A DNA stretch of 28,518 nt, taken from positions 1 to 28,518 of the IMG/VR virus record IMGVR_UViG_3300014492_000711; one strand, 5' to 3'. Below the pieces are notes generated by a model. The model did not search any database and had not been told where the DNA came from. It saw only the letters and a program-made list of their open reading frames with translations. The translations under genes and the position numbers were made by a program. The stretch comes from a virus. This document shows positions 1,138 to 19,795 of this stretch, piece by piece (position 1 is the stretch's first letter; each line of letters begins with the position of its first letter).

Positions 1138-1905
1138 GTGATGATGGCCCCCGAAAATCCACCCGGCTTCGTCGTGCGCACTGAGGCGCAGAAGGCGGCG
1201 TCGGACAACGGCTATCGGCAGGAACGCGGCGTCGAGAGCGGGTGGCTGCACTACGCCTCGACCACAGCGCCGGGTTCGATCTGGATCGCCGGCGCTTCCG
1301 ACCATGGCCCCTGGCTGCTGTCACTCGACCATTCCGGTGTTGCTACGGAGATCGGCGCTCTCCCGGCGGCGCCCGTCCGCGGGCCAGGGCTGGCGACCTT
1401 CATGCTACCAAACGTTACGGAACTGCACGTTGCGCTTGACCGTGTCTACAAGCTTGCCATGAGCTTGCCGGAAGCGCCGCTCGATCGCTTCAAGGCCAAA
1501 ACGGCCAATCTTCCCCGGACGACCGAAGCCGAGCGGATGGTAATCCAGCGCATTGGCCAAGATGTATTCCGCGAAGCCCTGATGAACTACTGGGGCAGCC
1601 GTTGCCCGCTCACCGGTATCACCGAACCGGGCCTACTTCGCGCATCCCATATCGTGCCTTGGGCTGACTGCACCGACGCGCAGCGCCTAGATGTGCATAA
1701 CGGTCTTCTGCTTTCCGCGCTTTGGGACGCGGCCTTTGATCGGGGGCTTATCAGCGTCGCCGATGACGGCACAGTTCTCGTCAGTCCTCAACTTAGCGAG
1801 GCGGCACGTAAGACGCTGAACGTAGCCGCGGCGCCGCTGCTTACGGGCCTACATCATGCACACCGTGCAAACTTGGCACTTCACCGCGCTCGCAACGGCT
1901 TTTGA
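1138..1905 (+). CDS. HNH endonuclease (HNH_2-type)
   Basis: The 255-residue product ends in a clear HNH nuclease module at about residues 152-222. It has CPLTG (156-160), the ASHIVPW core with catalytic His171, DVHNGLLL with Asn188, and the FDRGLISVADDG strand, in the spacing of HNH_2 proteins (PF13391). Residues 35-110 form an N-terminal domain of beta-strand character (SIWIAGASDHGPWLLSL) that often precedes this module in alphaproteobacteria and may bind DNA. The start is GTG at 1138, directly after the stop of the preceding gene; ATG codons at 1141 and 1144 are in frame and equally plausible. No strong Shine-Dalgarno is visible, which fits translational coupling. The expected activity is DNA cleavage. 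The biological role (restriction or defence against host self-DNA versus invaders) is not shown by sequence. Confidence 0.85.
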   Translation: MMMAPENPPGFVVRTEAQKAASDNGYRQERGVESGWLHYASTTAPGSIWIAGASDHGPWLLSLDHSGVATEIGALPAAPVRGPGLATFMLPNVTELHVALDRVYKLAMSLPEAPLDRFKAKTANLPRTTEAERMVIQRIGQDVFREALMNYWGSRCPLTGITEPGLLRASHIVPWADCTDAQRLDVHNGLLLSALWDAAFDRGLISVADDGTVLVSPQLSEAARKTLNVAAAPLLTGLHHAHRANLALHRARNGF

Positions 1906-2361
1906 TGGCTCTGGCTGGACGTTGCATGCTGGAAGTCATGGCACGAGTTTTTGTATATCTCCACCTCAGCACTGCGGCGTTTCCGATTTAGATTGATTGG
2001 AATTAGGTCGATCGAAGCAGGGAAAAAGGCTTCAAAGACGAATTCAAGGCGGACCCGTGTCAATGAGTGCCGATGGCATCTATGCCGACAGTCAATGCCC
2101 TACCCGACGAGCTTTGGACTAAGATCAGCATCTAGTTTTACAAGTACGCGGCCGATGCAGTTTTCAAGGCCCTAGTTGAATGGCGCGCCAACCATCGCAC
2201 AAAAGTACGATCGCCAAAGAGGATCGAAAGGGCGCGTTAGCACTCTGTCCGTGACGCCCAAAATATTTCACAATAATCGCAATAACTTAACCTATTGGGT
2301 TGAATTTCTTCGCCGACTCACCGTATATTGGCAAAGCAAATTTAAGCGCAGGAGGCGCGCC
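1906..2361. other. gene-poor spacer upstream of the HTH/ImmA gene
   Basis: These 456 bases are visibly AT-richer than the flanks and hold no convincing intact gene. A plus-strand frame from the ATG at 2082 to the TAG at 2238-2240 reads like coding sequence (MPTVNALPDELWTKISI, then FYKYAADAVFKALVEW) but is broken by a TAG at 2133-2135, so it may be a decayed gene fragment. The 3' end contains the putative promoter described separately. No tRNA, insertion-sequence end or long repeat was seen. Confidence 0.4.
2300..2329 (+). promoter_or_regulatory. putative sigma-70-type promoter for the HTH/ImmA gene
   Basis: TTGAAT at 2300-2305 and TATATT at 2324-2329 are separated by 18 bases. The -10 box lies 32 bases before the ATG at 2362. 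The preceding stretch (2260-2300) is AT-rich, unlike most of the window. The assignment is by inspection of consensus resemblance only. Confidence 0.4.
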
Positions 2362-3291
2362 ATGTTGACCCCGTTTGGGATTGCAGTGCGAAAACTACGG
2401 CTCGACAAGGGTATGAGACTCTTGGATCTTGCCCGCCTCACGGCCCGCAGCGCCGCCTTCATCTCCGCCATCGAAACGGGCAAGAAGTCGATCCCCGACG
2501 CTTATGTTGCGTTGATTGCCCGGGCGATGAAGCTTTCGGCAGCTGAAATCAAGGAATTACGCCGCGCCGCAGATCGTACGCGGAAAGAAGTGCAGGTGGC
2601 GAAGCTGCCAGAAGACCAACGTGAACTTGTGGCGGCATTCGCCCGCAAGCTCGATGAGCTTCCAAGCGCAATGATGGCAGACTTGAAAAAGATTGTCCTG
2701 AAATCGTCATCCAGCGACATCCCATTTCATCGGAAACGGCGTGGGATATTTGTACCGCCGATGTCTACCGATGTGATCCGCGATTTCGCCGACAAGGTAC
2801 GGTCCGCGTTCGTTGAAGATTCGCAGATTGATTTTCCAATCATGGATGTCTTGGAGTTTCGAATGGCTAACTTGATTGACGGATTTTATGTCGATGTCCA
2901 GGACAAAGAGACGATGGGCCCCGATGAAGGACGAGTTGTTGCGGGCGAAAATGTCATTGCTTTGCGAGAAGACGTGTACGCAGGCGCCTGGGAAGGCAAT
3001 GGCCGTGATAGGTTCACTGCGTGTCACGAGCTTGCGCATTTTCTATTGCACAGAACGGTGACTATGGCTCGAATGAGAGACGATGCAGACAAGATTTATT
3101 GTGATGCCGAATGGCAAGCAGACACGTTTGCCGGGACGCTATTGATGTCTCCTCGGCATCTGCATCAGTTCAAGGATGCTGACGAGGCAGCCGCGGCTTG
3201 CAAAATGAGTCCTCCGGCGGCACAGGTCATGTGGAAAAAATACACTGGAGAGGGACGCTTCAAAAGTTCGTCACCTCAACCAGCTTTGTAA
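2362..3291 (+). CDS. XRE-family HTH regulator fused to ImmA/IrrE-type metallopeptidase
   Basis: The frame is open from a TTG at 2176, but the ATG at 2362 is chosen because it has a strong Shine-Dalgarno (AGGAGG, 2350-2355) and the HTH starts right after it. The result is 309 residues. Residues 5-60 are a Cro/C1-type helix-turn-helix (VRKLRLDKGMRLLDLARL, then AAFISAIETGKKSIP). Residues about 160-290 are an ImmA/IrrE domain with the zinc motif HELAH (222-226) and the downstream AEWQADTFAGTLLMSP segment, where Glu250 is the likely third ligand. Known relatives are prophage regulators in which the peptidase cleaves or relieves a repressor (ImmA/ImmR, IrrE/DdrO). Here both functions sit on one chain, as in many XRE-COG2856 proteins. 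It may control lysogeny or a stress-linked switch. That it controls this prophage is inference, since no cognate operator or lysogeny neighbour is present. Confidence 0.88.
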   Translation: MLTPFGIAVRKLRLDKGMRLLDLARLTARSAAFISAIETGKKSIPDAYVALIARAMKLSAAEIKELRRAADRTRKEVQVAKLPEDQRELVAAFARKLDELPSAMMADLKKIVLKSSSSDIPFHRKRRGIFVPPMSTDVIRDFADKVRSAFVEDSQIDFPIMDVLEFRMANLIDGFYVDVQDKETMGPDEGRVVAGENVIALREDVYAGAWEGNGRDRFTACHELAHFLLHRTVTMARMRDDADKIYCDAEWQADTFAGTLLMSPRHLHQFKDADEAAAACKMSPPAAQVMWKKYTGEGRFKSSSPQPAL

Positions 3292-13312: not shown

Positions 13313-16072
13313 TTATCCCTGGAACCAATTCGGTTTGCGTCCGGCGGAACGGACCTGTTTGGCCGAGGCAAAGCGTTGAAGCCGATCGACCACATCGCCC
13401 GCGGCAGTCATGGCAAAGGCTTCGCCGGCAATGTTGATGGTGACCGGCCGCAGGCTGCTGCCTACCGACACGGCAGAAACCGCCGCCAAGCCGCCGTCAG
13501 CGAAGTGCATTGGTAGCGGCACCAATGCTTGCAACGACCGCACGAGCCCGCCTTCGGCAAACCGCGCGAATGCTTTCGGATTGATCTGCATCCCGTTGAG
13601 CGCATCGAACAGCGAGAGCCCGTATTTGCGCACGGCTGCGGCGCGGACCACGAACTCGCCGTTCGACAGCCACGCCGGGATCGAATCGCTGGTCGCAGAG
13701 CCGGGCCCGAACACCGCGCCGCCGCGGGCGTAACCATTGCCTCCGCTCGCCGCCTGCTGCTGGGCGCTGAACGCCTGCCGCGCCGCCTCCGCGATGGCGT
13801 TCCAGACGCCGAGAGCGAAGTCCCGCAGCGACGCGAGAAAGCCGATGACCCTGTCGATGCCGGCGCTCCAAAGCGACGCGATGCTGTCCCAGGCGCCGAC
13901 GACGCCATCAATGATCGCCTGCCAAGCCGATTGCGCGGCGGTGGTCAGTGTTTCCCAGAGGGCGTCCACCGAATCGACCCCCGCCTGCCAGGCAGCTTGC
14001 AGGGCAGCCCATAGCGCGGCGGCGCCGGATAGAATCTCGTCGGCCATCGATTGCGCCGCATCGAGGACCTCGCGCCAAGTCGCGCTCAGAAGCTGCATAC
14101 CGCTCTGCCAGCGCGCCGCCAGGCTGGTCCAGAACGCAGCAGCACTGGCAACCACAGCTAGGAAGGCGGCATTGGCCGTGGCGACGATTTGTTGCCACAC
14201 AACGCCAGCCGCCTGCACGAACGCCTCAAATTGCGCCGCGAGTCCGGTCGCAAGATTGGTCACAAACGACAACACCGCATCGAGTGCCGCTTGCGCGCGC
14301 TGCGCAAAGGTCGACCAGTCCACCGCGCGTACAAGCGTGACCGCAAGAAAGCCGATGGCCGCTCCGATGGCGGCGATCGCAACCGGAACGATGCCGATGG
14401 CGGCGATGAGGCCGACCACGGCAACGCGCAGAACGCCGAAGAGGCCGCCCAGTGCCTCGAATGCCACAAGCATGAGCTGTCCGACGGCGGTCACGGCGAC
14501 GAAAGATGCACGCAGCACCCCGAAGGCGCCGACAACGAGCTTGATGACGTTGGCAAGTAGTGTGAAGGCACCCACCATCCTGGCAAGGAGAAGCACGACG
14601 CCGACATCGGCGGCAGTCAGCTGCGTGCCGAAAATGCGGTTGATCGATTCGGCAATGGTCTGAAGGAGCGCAAGGAATTCCTTGAACGCCGGGACGATGA
14701 TGTTCTGGGTGACCTTTGCCACGGCCGCGCCGAGGTCGATGATCATTTGGCGCGCCGACTTGATCCAGCCCGTCTCGATTGCATCGGTGTCCCCGGTCAG
14801 CGCCCGGACCAGGTCAAGGAGCACCGGGCGAACGCGCGTCGCCAACTCGCTCGCCCATAGAAGAATATCGGTGCGAACACGGCCGATCGCATCAATGAGG
14901 AGCTCGGCAGCGTCGGTGATCGCCGGGGCAAAGATGATCCCAACGGAATTCTTGGTCGCGGCAACGCTACGCCGAAGGAGTGCCAAGGTTTCGCTCAGGC
15001 TCTTGCCAACCTCGAGCTCAGTGTCGCTCATGATCAGGCCGAGCCGTTCGGCGCGATTGCCGATCTGGTCGATCGCCTGCCGGCCGCCGCTCAACAGCTC
15101 GACCATCTGCGGGCCAAGCCGTCGGCCGAAGATCTCGACCACGCGTGAGGCCCGTTCGGCCGGTGTCGGCAGTGCGCTGATCTGGTCGGCGAGCGCCTTC
15201 AGCCGTTCGATCGCATCCTGATTGCTGGGCCCAAGTCCCTTGAGCGCCTGGTCGACATGAATGATGGATTCGCCTCCCTGCCGGACGCTTGGCCCGAACA
15301 GCTCCATTTCGCGGCGGAGCTTGTCATAATCCTGGGCGGCTTGCCGACCCGCGAAGCCGCCTTGCAGGGTGGCCTGGCGCAACTCGAGGAGACGCTGCTG
15401 ATTGCCGTTGAAATTATCAGACTGTTCCTGGACCTTTTCGTTGATCAGCGAGAGCGCTGACACCAACTTGTCTTCGCTGCCGCCGAGTTGCTCGGCGGCG
15501 ACGGCAAGTCTCTGATATTCCCGCGGCGAGGTGCCGGCTGCGATCGCGGCATCCTTGATCTGCTCCGCCGCGTTGGCTGCGGAGACTGAGATCGCAAGGA
15601 ACGACGCCGGCACAGCCGATAAGACTGCGACGGATCGGAGCACGGTACCGCTGATCGACTCGAATGCGCCCGTCACGCCATCGCGAAACTCGCGCACGCG
15701 ACCAAAAGCGCCCGAGAAAGCCGTGCCGACCGCCTGGACCGCAAGCCCGACCCGCGCGCCGATATTGACGGCCTCGACCAGCCGTTGCTGTGTCGCCTGG
15801 ACGGCGCCGCCGAACTGCGAAAAGCCCGAGCCGCTCTGTGCAGCAGTACTTCCGGTCGCAGCGATGCGCTGGCGAAGCTCATCAACGGTCGTACTCGCGC
15901 GCTTGGTCGCAGCTTCGATTGCCGAGGCGGGACCGCTGAGGTTGACCTTTTCGCCGGCCTTTTGCAGCTGCGCGAAGGCGTCCTCACCGGCTTTGCCGAG
16001 ATCGGCAAGCGCGCGCTTGACCTGATCGGAGCCTTCAAGCGCAATGCGTTGCGAGATCGTCGGGCGCGCCAT
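13313..16072 (-). CDS. tape measure protein
   Basis: The product has 919 residues and is the longest gene in the block. Residues 1-100 are helical and coiled-coil-like. Residues 100-480 are alanine-rich helices (lambda-type loop segments such as AGTSPREYQRLAVAAEQLGGSEDKL). Residues 488-585 are a long hydrophobic region. Residues about 590-790 repeat a tryptophan-rich helical motif (WQAGVDSVDALWETLTTA, then AWQAIIDGVVGAWDSI). This is the standard anatomy of a siphovirus tape measure, which sets tail length and enters the host at DNA injection. By the usual rule of about 0.15 nm per residue the tail would be roughly 140 nm. The ATG at 16072 lies one base past the preceding stop. The upstream chaperone gene is separated from it by cargo. 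Confidence 0.93.
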   Translation of the reverse strand: MARPTISQRIALEGSDQVKRALADLGKAGEDAFAQLQKAGEKVNLSGPASAIEAATKRASTTVDELRQRIAATGSTAAQSGSGFSQFGGAVQATQQRLVEAVNIGARVGLAVQAVGTAFSGAFGRVREFRDGVTGAFESISGTVLRSVAVLSAVPASFLAISVSAANAAEQIKDAAIAAGTSPREYQRLAVAAEQLGGSEDKLVSALSLINEKVQEQSDNFNGNQQRLLELRQATLQGGFAGRQAAQDYDKLRREMELFGPSVRQGGESIIHVDQALKGLGPSNQDAIERLKALADQISALPTPAERASRVVEIFGRRLGPQMVELLSGGRQAIDQIGNRAERLGLIMSDTELEVGKSLSETLALLRRSVAATKNSVGIIFAPAITDAAELLIDAIGRVRTDILLWASELATRVRPVLLDLVRALTGDTDAIETGWIKSARQMIIDLGAAVAKVTQNIIVPAFKEFLALLQTIAESINRIFGTQLTAADVGVVLLLARMVGAFTLLANVIKLVVGAFGVLRASFVAVTAVGQLMLVAFEALGGLFGVLRVAVVGLIAAIGIVPVAIAAIGAAIGFLAVTLVRAVDWSTFAQRAQAALDAVLSFVTNLATGLAAQFEAFVQAAGVVWQQIVATANAAFLAVVASAAAFWTSLAARWQSGMQLLSATWREVLDAAQSMADEILSGAAALWAALQAAWQAGVDSVDALWETLTTAAQSAWQAIIDGVVGAWDSIASLWSAGIDRVIGFLASLRDFALGVWNAIAEAARQAFSAQQQAASGGNGYARGGAVFGPGSATSDSIPAWLSNGEFVVRAAAVRKYGLSLFDALNGMQINPKAFARFAEGGLVRSLQALVPLPMHFADGGLAAVSAVSVGSSLRPVTINIAGEAFAMTAAGDVVDRLQRFASAKQVRSAGRKPNWFQG

Positions 16073-16073
16073 A

Positions 16074-16721
16074 TCAATCCGTGAAGTGCTTCAGATAGAG
16101 GTCGGGCAGCTTGGCTGCGGCGCGCCGGATCGCGTCGATGATTGCAAAGCGTTTACTGATGCTCGCAACATCGACGCCGACATAGAGCGGTACGAGTCTC
16201 ACCGTTCCCTTGCCACTCGGATTGCGGCCACGACGGAGAAGCGCCAGCGAGATCGGCTTGCCGGCGCGCACGTCGGTCGTCCGCACGTTGGCGCCGAGCA
16301 TCGCTGGCTTGCCCGGACGTCGAATAGTGTACAGCGGCATCCCGACTTGCTGCTGAAACTTTGCCGGCGGGATGCGCCGGCCGCCGGCACCGAACGGCGC
16401 ATTGGGCAATGGCAGCCACAACAGCGGCTTGCCGTGGATTACGGCGCCCTCTTCGAACACCTGCGCGTAGGGCACCTTGTGATAGATCAGCGCCGCCGCC
16501 CGCATGCTGTCACGGCCCGGCGGGTAGACCTTCGTGCGCAACGCATTCTGCCATTTACGGCTGAAGCCGGCGGCCGCGATGCTGGCGCGACCGCCCGCCT
16601 TGGCGAGCTCAGCAGCTTCGCGCACTGCGGCGGTGGCGGCCTTCGCGATCGGTCGCTCGCCTTCTGTGATTGCCTTAAAGAAGCCGCCCGCCACCGCTGA
16701 AAGCGTTAGGCGCAACGGCAT
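16074..16721 (-). CDS. DUF6441-like phage tail protein
   Basis: The product has 215 residues. Residues 50-100 (FSRKWQNALRTKVYP, then AALIYHKVPYAQVFEEGAVIHGKPLLWLPLP) are typical of the DUF6441 family found beside tape-measure genes in alphaproteobacterial prophages. The family assignment is from memory. The ATG at 16721 is preceded by GGACGGA. It is the first minus-strand gene downstream of the SOUL cargo unit and runs directly into the tape measure. Its likely role is a tail completion or assembly factor. Expression requires either readthrough across the antisense SOUL gene or a local minus-strand promoter, which I could not identify. Confidence 0.72.
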   Translation of the reverse strand: MPLRLTLSAVAGGFFKAITEGERPIAKAATAAVREAAELAKAGGRASIAAAGFSRKWQNALRTKVYPPGRDSMRAAALIYHKVPYAQVFEEGAVIHGKPLLWLPLPNAPFGAGGRRIPPAKFQQQVGMPLYTIRRPGKPAMLGANVRTTDVRAGKPISLALLRRGRNPSGKGTVRLVPLYVGVDVASISKRFAIIDAIRRAAAKLPDLYLKHFTD

Positions 16722-16950: not shown

Positions 16951-17580
16951 ATGAGAAAGAAGAACACATTATGGATCGCTGTCGGAGTTATTTTACTCGG
17001 TGCCGCGGCATGGGGGCCGATTGTGAGTAACGTTGAGCAGCCCAAATATGAAACCGTCGAAACGGCCGATAAAATTGAAATTCGCGACTACGCGCCCATT
17101 ATCGTTGCCGAGACAGATGTGTCCGGAGAACGCCGAACGGCAATAGGCGAAGGCTTTCGCACCATAGCGGGCTACATCTTCGGCAATAATCTCTCTTCAC
17201 AGAAGGTGCCGATGACCGCTCCCGTCACCCAGCAGGCCAGTGAAAAAATAGCCATGACCGCACCGGTAACCCAGCAAGGTGATGGCGAGACTTGGCACGT
17301 CAGATTCGTCATGCCCGCTAACTACACTATGGACACGCTCCCGAAGCCGAAGAATCCTGCCGTCAAGATCAAGGAAATTGCGGCTAAACGGTTTGCGGTG
17401 ATCCGCTTCTCCGGATGGGCGGGTGAGGAAAGTCTGAAGCGTCGCACCGATGAATTGGACGCATTCATCAGTGCGAAAAATCTGCATCCCGTGTCGGCGC
17501 CCACCTATGCATATTACAACCCACCGTGGACGCTGCCATTTTTCCGCCGTAACGAGGTTATGATCGAAATTGCGCGTTAG
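16951..17580 (+). CDS. membrane-anchored SOUL-family haem-binding protein (prophage cargo)
   Basis: The product has 209 residues. An N-terminal basic stretch and hydrophobic helix (about 7-26) give a signal anchor or uncleaved signal peptide, so the domain is predicted to be periplasmic. Residues about 33-207 are a SOUL domain, with KYETVETADKIEIRDYAP at the start, KVPMTAPVTQ in the middle and PFFRRNEVMIEI at the end. The MTAPVTQQ unit occurs twice in tandem. SOUL proteins bind haem or related tetrapyrroles, but their bacterial role is not settled. The gene opposes all neighbouring phage genes, and its TAG overlaps the TAA of the tail-chaperone extension by three bases. It looks like a lysogenic-conversion (moron) gene and seems less GC-rich than its neighbours by eye. 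Confidence 0.9.
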   Translation: MRKKNTLWIAVGVILLGAAAWGPIVSNVEQPKYETVETADKIEIRDYAPIIVAETDVSGERRTAIGEGFRTIAGYIFGNNLSSQKVPMTAPVTQQASEKIAMTAPVTQQGDGETWHVRFVMPANYTMDTLPKPKNPAVKIKEIAAKRFAVIRFSGWAGEESLKRRTDELDAFISAKNLHPVSAPTYAYYNPPWTLPFFRRNEVMIEIAR

Positions 17581-18184
17581 TGACGCTGCAAATCTTCAAT
17601 CTGTTTCTTGAGTGCTCGTGGGTCACCACGGGCAGCGAGTGCGCCGAGCGCGAGTTGTTCAGCGGCCAACCGCTTTCTGCGTCGCTCGGCGAAATAGAGC
17701 GAGCCCGCGATTTCGCGCGGCGTCATCGCCCAGACTTCGGAACGCGGGTAATTGGTGGCGATCAGGGCGTCGATGGCTTCGGCGATTTCGAAGCCGGCGC
17801 CGTAACGGATGGAGCGGCGTCGAGGATGCCGCCGAGCGCCGTCAACTTCTCGACGAAAGGGCCGAGGCCCCCCGGCAGCGTGAGCCGAAGGATAGTGGCG
17901 AGGAGATTGGCCTGGGCATCAATAGCGAGCTTGCCGGCCACCTCCTCGGCTTTTGGGTCGCCCGGATAACCGCACCCGGCTGCGATGATGGCGGCCACTG
18001 CGTCGCCGCCCATCGTCATCAACTCCTCGGCCTCAACCTCCTGCCCGCTCATCAACTTGCGCAGCTCAGGAAAGCGGCCGAGCAGATGCGCTACACCCTT
18101 TGCTGAGATCCCGTGTACGGCGACGGCTACACCCTGCACCTCGACGGTCTCGACGTTGGGCGCGATATCGATCAGGCCTACCAT
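17577..18184 (-). CDS. tail assembly chaperone, -1 frameshift fusion product (GT-like)
   Basis: Reading the chaperone from ATG 18184 to codon GGC at 17869-17867 and then slipping -1 opens a frame without stops to the TAA at 17579-17577. The fusion is 202 residues: 106 from the first frame and 96 from the second. The added part contains GFEIAEAIDALIATNYPRSE and MTPREIAGSLYFAERRRKRL, which reads as real protein and resembles the second-frame product of alphaproteobacterial tail chaperones. In lambda, G and the frameshifted GT chaperone the tape measure during tail assembly. Here the frameshift is predicted from the heptamer and the open frame. The second frame alone could start at ATG 17726 (49 residues) but shows no strong ribosome site. 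Confidence 0.75.
17762..18184 (-). CDS. tail assembly chaperone, unshifted product (G-like)
   Basis: The product has 140 residues. The frame is open to a TTG at 18199, but the ATG at 18184 is preferred because TTGAGGTA lies at normal spacing. The domain begins LIDIAPNVETVEVQGVAVAVHGISAKG and continues with FPELRKLMSGQEV, a pattern of small acidic/helical tail assembly proteins. The C-terminal 30 residues after the slippery site (ending APASKSPKPSTP) are low-complexity, as expected if the unshifted tail matters little. A TATAAC element at 18207-18202 on the minus strand could be a -10 box, but no -35 box is evident. It sits between the tail tube gene and the tape measure, as gene G does in lambda, but with cargo on both sides. 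Confidence 0.78.
   Translation of the reverse strand: MVGLIDIAPNVETVEVQGVAVAVHGISAKGVAHLLGRFPELRKLMSGQEVEAEELMTMGGDAVAAIIAAGCGYPGDPKAEEVAGKLAIDAQANLLATILRLTLPGGLGPFVEKLTALGGILDAAPSVTAPASKSPKPSTP
17867..17873 (-). other. -1 programmed frameshift site, G GGG GGC
   Basis: On the minus strand the heptamer GGGGGGC lies in the frame of the chaperone as X XXY YYZ (CCG GGG GGC, with GGC as codon 106 from ATG 18184). After slippage both tRNAs re-pair with G-rich codons. The -1 frame is open for 96 codons. This is among the slippery forms used by phage G/GT genes. Confidence 0.78.
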
Positions 18185-18300: not shown

Positions 18301-18750
18301 ATGTCCTCGCCAACCCCGCAGCCGGTGATCGAGAGAGTTTTTCGCAAGCTAGGCGGCCCTCAGGCCCTGGGCAGTGACGTGTCTTCGGAGGCCGATCTGG
18401 CTCGCATCGTTCATGGTCGCATTCGGCTGGCCGTTCTCGCCCACGTCTTGAAAGCAGGATTTTCAAAACAGGAGATCGAGCGCTTCGTTATTCCGTCGCG
18501 CACTTGGAGGCACCGTAAGACGAAGAGACAACCTCTTTCGATCGAGGAGTCCGACCGCGTTGTAAGGCTCGCTCGCATTCAAGCCTTGGCAGAGGATGTG
18601 TTCGGCGATGCTGAAAAGGCCAACCGATGGCTTCGCGAAGGGTTGGGAATTCTAAATGGAAGCTCGCCACTCGAAGTCGCACGGACCGACGCCGGTGTTC
18701 GTTTGATCGAGCAAATTCTTGCGAAGCTCGACTGGGGCGCCGCCGCCTAG
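18301..18750 (+). CDS. Xre/MbcA/ParS-type antitoxin (DUF2384)
   Basis: The product has 149 residues. The ATG at 18301 is preceded by AGGAGAG. Residues about 30-80 form a helix-turn-helix-like region (ARIVHGRIRLAVLAHVLKAG, then FVIPSRTWRHRK). Residues 93-149 are the toxin-binding DUF2384 module, with AEDVFGDAEKANRWLREG, SSPLEVARTDAGVRLIEQIL and a C-terminal LDWGA. It should bind and neutralise the RES toxin encoded immediately downstream (TAG directly followed by ATG) and repress its own promoter through the two palindromes upstream. Both genes oppose the phage tail operon, which marks the pair as an inserted cargo unit. Confidence 0.92.
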   Translation: MSSPTPQPVIERVFRKLGGPQALGSDVSSEADLARIVHGRIRLAVLAHVLKAGFSKQEIERFVIPSRTWRHRKTKRQPLSIEESDRVVRLARIQALAEDVFGDAEKANRWLREGLGILNGSSPLEVARTDAGVRLIEQILAKLDWGAAA

Positions 18751-19218
18751 ATGCGTCTTTGGCGGCTATCTAGTGAGCGGCGCGCCCGCGCCTTCGATGG
18801 CGGCTACGGGCTTGCCAATGACGGCCGCTGGAACACGCAGGGTCGCCCGGTAACATACTGTTCGACGGTGGTTTCGCTTACCGCGCTGGAAAAGCGCGTT
18901 CACGTGACCGATCCCGCTCTCTTGCCGGCACAGGTCCTTGTTACTTACGAGTTGCCAGATCGAGTTTCCATGCGAACGATCGGCATCAGCGAGCTTCCTT
19001 CAGACTGGACGGCACGCCAGACCCATACACAAAACATTGGCGATCAATGGCTCGATTCGGTATCTGAAGTATTGCTATTTGTTCCGTCTGTCATTGTGCC
19101 GATCGCAGACGTGCCAGATCGAAACGTGCTTATTAATCATCGCGTCGCGGACGCTGCTTTGATCAAGATCGCGGACGTTGCTCCGTTCTCACTCGATCCA
19201 CGACTCTTCAAGCCCTGA
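18751..19218 (+). CDS. RES-domain toxin (NAD-targeting family)
   Basis: The product has 155 residues and is nearly all RES domain. It has MRLWRL with Arg5, GRWNTQGRPVTYCSTVVSLTALE with Arg26, Tyr36 and Glu47 as the conserved active-site type residues, and a C-terminal VPDRNVLINHRVADAAL. Characterised RES toxins of RES-Xre pairs deplete NAD+ and arrest growth. The start abuts the stop of the antitoxin, so translation is coupled and toxin output depends on antitoxin synthesis. In a prophage the pair could stabilise the lysogen or act against superinfecting phages. Either is inference. No disruption of the reading frame is seen. Confidence 0.93.
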   Translation: MRLWRLSSERRARAFDGGYGLANDGRWNTQGRPVTYCSTVVSLTALEKRVHVTDPALLPAQVLVTYELPDRVSMRTIGISELPSDWTARQTHTQNIGDQWLDSVSEVLLFVPSVIVPIADVPDRNVLINHRVADAALIKIADVAPFSLDPRLFKP

Positions 19219-19270: not shown

Positions 19271-19795
19271 TCACGCGCTTGCCGCGCCCTCACGCACCGT
19301 CCAGGTGCCGAACTTTCCATCCTCGTTCGACAACGCCTCGCCTTCGATCTCGATGTTGCCCCACTCGTCGGAGATCGGGTTAAGGCTCTTGCCCGGCTTG
19401 AACACGACCCGAAATAGGCAAATGTCCATCTGCGCGCCAATCTCGTTGGTGCCTTCGTATTTCAGTTCGCCCTCGAACGAATTGCGCGAAAAGATATCGA
19501 TGACCTTGTTGCCGGCGCTATCGGTCTCGACATCGCCCAGGAGTGCCATTGCGAGGTTGTCGGCGGTCCACTCGTCCATGACCATAGTCACGGTCATCTT
19601 CTTCTCGGTGACCACTTCCTTATCCTTCTTTTTGACGCCCTCGCGCGAAGAGAAGTGCTCCAGCGTGGTGAGGTTCGGTGTGGTCTCAAGCGAGCTGACA
19701 TTGCCGAGATCTCGGTAGGTCAATTCGCCCACGGCCTTGAAGCTGAGCTTGCCTTTGCCGACGTAGTAATTGTCGGTTGAAGGAGAGACGGGCAT
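19271..19795 (-). CDS. major tail (tube) protein
   Basis: The product has 174 residues. The start PVSPSTDNYYVGKGKLSFKAVGELTYRDLGNV is typical of siphovirus tail-tube proteins, as are the charged loop KKKDKEVVTEKK and the C-terminal beta-hairpins (WGNIEIEGEALSNEDGKFGTWTV). The ATG at 19795 has GGAGG upstream. It follows the tail terminator-like gene and is followed by the RES-Xre cargo and then the tail assembly chaperone. In other lambda-like phages the chaperone follows the tube gene directly, so the cargo interrupts a conserved pair. Confidence 0.85.
   Translation of the reverse strand: MPVSPSTDNYYVGKGKLSFKAVGELTYRDLGNVSSLETTPNLTTLEHFSSREGVKKKDKEVVTEKKMTVTMVMDEWTADNLAMALLGDVETDSAGNKVIDIFSRNSFEGELKYEGTNEIGAQMDICLFRVVFKPGKSLNPISDEWGNIEIEGEALSNEDGKFGTWTVREGAASA

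Follow-up and report, generated by a model that had tools for sequence, protein, structure and literature searches.

A conserved CCCTTTN heptamer as the probable slip site of a -1 frameshift in the tail assembly chaperone gene of uncultured siphophages

Examination of the window, that is, the whole 28,518-nucleotide stretch of viral DNA analysed here (IMG/VR record IMGVR_UViG_3300014492_000711), revealed tail genes in the order major tail protein, G-like/T-like chaperone, DUF6441 protein and tape measure protein, with cargo genes interspersed (Table 1). The chaperone gene is found between those of the major tail protein and the tape measure protein, the usual location of a tail assembly chaperone gene.

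Table 1. Positions of the tail genes, the second-frame extension and the two heptamers considered in the window.
Feature	Coordinates	Strand	Remarks
Major tail protein gene, upstream	19271..19795	(-)	phrog_807, 2.2e-33; relatives in 163 fetched loci
G-like pre-tape-measure/tail assembly chaperone gene	17762..18184	(-)	140 aa; PF23789, phrog_5260, fold match
G GGG GGC heptamer of the preliminary description	17867..17873	(-)	Present, not conserved; rejected as main slip site
C CCT TTC heptamer, proposed as the actual slip site	17855..17861	(-)	In-phase X XXY YYZ; Pro109-Phe110 codons
-1 frame extension, T-like domain	17577..17861	(-)	94 codons from heptamer plus TAA; fusion of ~202 aa
DUF6441 gene, between chaperone and tape measure genes	16074..16721	(-)	PF20039, 72 bits; similar in 75 fetched loci
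Tape measure protein gene, downstream	13313..16072	(-)	919 aa; phrog_3547 and many other tape-measure PHROGs

The zero-frame ORF of the chaperone gene comprises 140 codons on the minus strand, from an ATG at position 18184 to a TGA at position 17762. Its product scored 53 bits against the Pfam family PF23789 (Pre_tape_measure), above the curated cut-off of 27, and matched phrog_5260 (tail protein; 2.6e-6). When the structure predicted for this protein (pLDDT 82) was compared with viral models, the top fold match (E 1.2e-5) came from Xylella phage Sano, a protein named "Pre-tape measure frameshift protein G"; sequence and fold searches of the PDB returned no credible match. Likewise, tblastn searches of isolate phages with three G proteins yielded no match at E 0.01.

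Relatives were identified by scanning IMG/VR, where 12 were found with the window protein, 80 with a profile and 67 with a second profile. A genome scan revealed seven relatives, six of them in alphaproteobacterial records, with those alphaproteobacterial records containing relatives being assigned to Hyphomicrobiales, Mesorhizobium, Hyphomonas, Aurantimonas, Niveispirillum and Sphingomonadales. The nearest relative, L094, is 96% identical and comes from a Hyphomicrobiales MAG from a bog. A search for PF23789 in 397 genomes of one order gave seven matches, which served for side checks only. The chaperone family is one of essentially uncultured phages, alphaproteobacterial where hosts are known.

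In the preliminary description of this locus, a programmed -1 frameshift of the G/GT kind was proposed to give the tail assembly chaperone a second-frame domain, a proposal that is strongly supported. Between the slip site assigned below and the zero-frame stop, no -1 frame stops were found in 65 relatives, as compared to 54.3 +/- 6.8 in synonymous shuffles. In a stretch of equal length upstream of the site, 57 -1 frame stops were counted, as compared to 71 in shuffles, and the +1 frame showed no depletion of stops. Because the relatives share ancestry, the probability obtained from the shuffles is too small and the independence of the loci overstated; the size of the effect is nonetheless clear. 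Nothing apart from the frame change itself would speak for gene decay or an error in sequencing; the same architecture, with both frames conserved, is seen in more than 100 metagenome and genome contigs, such that this explanation is already refuted and its probability negligible.

The -1 frame encodes a conserved motif, GYEIA.A.E.LIA.GH...VW.YTPRQ...LAARGDP. AlphaFold modelled the T domain confidently as helices (pLDDT of ~95 across T residues 31-70), following a basic linker of low model confidence. In 39 of 46 members, the T domain matched PHROG 13355, a group of unknown function. In nine of the 46, PF09550 (Phage_TAC_6; best 0.0043) weakly matched the domain at W.(M/Y)TPR, with the window protein missing the cut-off for this family (15.5 bits vs. 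23.4), such that this likeness, being below the Pfam cut-off, does not establish membership. PF09550 is presumably the family of RcGTA g10.1. When isolate phages were searched by tblastn with one T domain, no match was obtained at E 1; another T domain gave weak matches only, the best being to Paracoccus phage Pthi1 (E 0.1).

Start codons were examined to see whether the second frame might instead be an overlapping gene in its own right, with translation beginning at a start codon within that frame or reinitiating past the zero-frame stop. In the window and its closest relatives, an in-frame ATG is indeed found at the MTPREI motif. However, 25 codons of the conserved domain precede this ATG, which most relatives lack. 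In most loci, the -1 frame contains no ATG, GTG or TTG from the site up to the GxGYE motif of the T domain. Across the family, both frames and the XXXYYYZ site are conserved and a second-frame start codon is not; as no conserved start precedes the T motif, a frameshift is needed for this domain to be translated. A separate gene would, moreover, leave the conserved heptamer described below unexplained, and predicts that neither GAGFEIAEAIDALIA nor the junction would be represented among peptides. Independent translation of the second frame is, as such, deemed extremely unlikely.

In the preliminary description, the frameshift was assigned to the G GGG GGC heptamer. This sequence is present and in phase, in the context CCG GGG GGC, fits the X XXY YYZ pattern, and is followed by a -1 frame that is open, as had been stated, up to the TAA at 17577-17579. 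However, GGGGGGC was missing from every relative examined except for the 96%-identical copy in the MAG mentioned above. Relatives L002-L005, in which the protein is 81-82% identical, contain GGTGGGC, GCAGGGT or the like at this position, and the residue encoded there is variable in the family. Moreover, three copies of GGGGGGC occur across the whole window, as compared to 5.0 expected by chance, such that the motif by itself carries no weight. The unshifted tail had also been described as being of low complexity, which proved correct for approximately the last 18 residues of the zero-frame product, to which low complexity is confined, but not for GLGPFVEKLTALGGILDA, zero-frame residues found 3' of GGGGGGC that are conserved among relatives. 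The zero-frame stretch LGPFVEKLTALG, likewise past GGGGGGC, is also kept in relatives, as expected where the unshifted protein is also made. Hence, when homologues were compared for conservation of the heptamer and the second frame, as the preliminary description had suggested, the second frame was conserved, containing no stops, whereas the heptamer was not. GGGGGGC as a conserved slip site was ruled out by its absence in relatives and by the conserved zero-frame protein beyond it. It is thus considered very unlikely that the frameshift occurs at this G run; some secondary slippage there, besides that at CCCTTTC, may take place.

The heptamer C CCT TTC is found 12 nt downstream of GGGGGGC, within GGC CCT TTC. 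In 56 of 65 distinct first-round relatives, CCCTTTN appears at the exact same alignment position. When strict in-phase XXXYYYZ heptamers of any composition were counted, 57 loci contained one at this position, as compared to at most eight at every other position. CCCTTTN was also present in all 37 distinct relatives of a second set, fetched once the CCCTTTN hypothesis had already been formed, and is carried by 67 of 78 clusters of relatives. Codon usage at the site was considered as well. Among the first-round relatives, the Pro aligned at the site is encoded by CCT in 56 of 60 cases and by CCC in four, a count that is free of circularity due to selection for CCCTTT, with CCT representing ~7% elsewhere. 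The genes of the relatives are GC-rich. Within the gene, synonymous constraint is by far strongest at this Pro codon, reaching 2.25 per codon as compared to at most 0.65 elsewhere before the dense overlap. The initial C is supplied by a preceding codon for Gly, Ala, Asp, Ser, Val, Asn, Pro or Arg. Where Leu follows the Pro, TTA or TTG is used in 23 of 23 clusters, as compared to a background of 17.6%, although the cluster counts are partly circular, since the clusters were picked for having CCCTTT. Conservation at the site, as read from these alignments, acts on DNA, beyond the protein alone, and the true slip site is almost certainly CCCTTTC rather than the G run.

Nine of the 11 clusters lacking CCCTTTN contain another in-phase XXXYYYZ heptamer nearby, namely CCCAAAN two to five codons upstream of the site in seven, and AAATTTT or GGGTTTC, in one cluster each, at the same place as CCCTTTN. 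A strict in-phase XXXYYYZ heptamer at the site or at most five codons away was, in this manner, found in 76 of the 78 clusters, with no such heptamer being found in the other two (L053 and L088). Across the exceptions, the XXXYYYZ pattern and its phase are seen to persist while the letters change. L053 and L088, which count against the proposed site, retain the T-like domain in the -1 frame, and GAG GAT TTC is read at the site by L053/L099.

A frameshift of the lambda G/GT type, in which tandem slippage on C CCU UUC in the G-like chaperone gene would generate a GT-like fusion, is considered highly probable. In a minority of ribosomes, tRNA-Pro on CCU and tRNA-Phe on UUC would slip back together by one base and re-pair with CCC and UUU, after which -1 frame reading would add a flexible, Arg-rich linker and then the helical T-like domain, ending at position 17577. 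The GT-like product of ~202 aa, with the junction LGPF-RREVD, would be made beside the 140-aa G protein. By analogy to lambda, the tape measure protein would be coated by numerous G copies and a small number of GT copies, with the T part recruiting the major tail protein. We infer the tandem slippage, its efficiency and the chaperone roles of the products. Slippage at CCCTTTC predicts the fusion peptide LPGGLGPF-RREVD, as opposed to LPGGPRPFRREVD for slippage at G GGG GGC.

Possible stimulators of slippage were also considered. In terms of RNA structure downstream of the heptamer, 60-nt windows following this sequence were no more stable (mean z -0.54) than those upstream (-0.70 to 0.01), which counts against the proposed mechanism. 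The energy of duplex formation with the anti-SD sequence was lowest directly 5' of the heptamer (mean -4.0 kcal/mol), a weak signal that at least partly reflects the conserved Gly GGN codon. Another point against the proposed slippage is that TTA or TTG, the tRNA for which re-pairs imperfectly with TTT, occupies the A site in 23 of 67 clusters; a comparable situation is found in phage P2, which uses T TTT TTG.

The lambda slippery heptamer is G GGA AAG, while that considered here is CCCTTTN, with the zero frame running ~30 codons beyond the site, and no sequence similarity to the lambda proteins was detectable. The window gene nonetheless resembles lambda G/GT in lying just ahead of the tape measure region, in having predicted short and C-terminally extended products, and in presenting a T-like second domain without a start of its own. 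In PMC5009743, which cites Levin 1993 and Xu 2004, the -1 programmed frameshift generating lambda gpG and gpGT is described, with counterparts conserved widely among tailed phages. According to the lambda model reviewed there, the tape measure protein is covered by G, and the tail tube protein is brought in by the T part. The Xylella phage Sano protein, the best viral fold match, is likewise named as a frameshift protein, with an identity of ~22%; the window protein is, as noted, above the PF23789 cut-off. Among alphaproteobacterial siphophages, the Caulobacter phiCbK group (gp93/gp94) also relies on a -1 shift in a pre-tape-measure chaperone, with slippery AAAAAAC or GGGAAAC sequences (PMC3556154), rather than CCCTTTN. 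In Paracoccus phage vB_PthS_Pthi1 (MK291444; L179, 2214-2836), p36 and p37 are annotated separately and are joined by an in-phase G GGA AAC and the -1 frame. Judged by this arrangement, the two are probably an unannotated G/GT frameshift of the same layout as the window gene, albeit very distant and with GGGAAAC in place of CCCTTTN. Among the papers listed in a literature search, which covered those open without subscription, none ties CCCTTT to a tail chaperone.

The frameshift mechanism itself has been known since lambda; the analysis corrects the slip site, the location of which decides the reporter or peptide to be sought. The predicted -1 frame product is one that routine ORF calling misses across more than 100 mostly unannotated phages, and these chaperone genes can be annotated by means of the CCCTTTN signature and the substitutes found for it at conserved positions. 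It is, moreover, moderately likely that a large, essentially uncultured siphophage family, alphaproteobacterial where hosts are known, uses CCCUUUN tandem slippage without a recognisable RNA stimulator and tolerates UUA or UUG Leu codons in the A site, with lineages that lost CCCUUUN having switched to CCCAAAN or another XXXYYYZ sequence at most five codons away. If so, this family would offer a natural series for studying slip-site movement in evolution.

In the course of examining the region, cargo genes were noted at two spots. Between the major tail protein and chaperone genes, and on the strand opposite to the surrounding tail operon, ORFs encoding an Xre/MbcA/ParS-type antitoxin (18301-18750, plus strand) and a RES-domain toxin (18751-19218, plus strand) were found. 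At the same spot, L002 contains an opposite-strand gene encoding a 495-aa protein with a SEC-C-like motif at its end (1367-2854, minus strand) and L004 contains an opposite-strand gene for what was judged by eye to be a ChaC-like gamma-glutamylcyclotransferase (2393-2932, minus strand), while L018 carries no cargo there. This spot looks like a hotspot for cargo insertion. Between the chaperone and DUF6441 genes, in reverse orientation, lies a gene (16951-17580, plus strand), the end of which overlaps the -1 frame stop by four bases and which, among the fetched loci, recurs in L094 only. Its predicted product is a SOUL heme-binding protein (PF04832, 170 bits) with an N-terminal hydrophobic segment.
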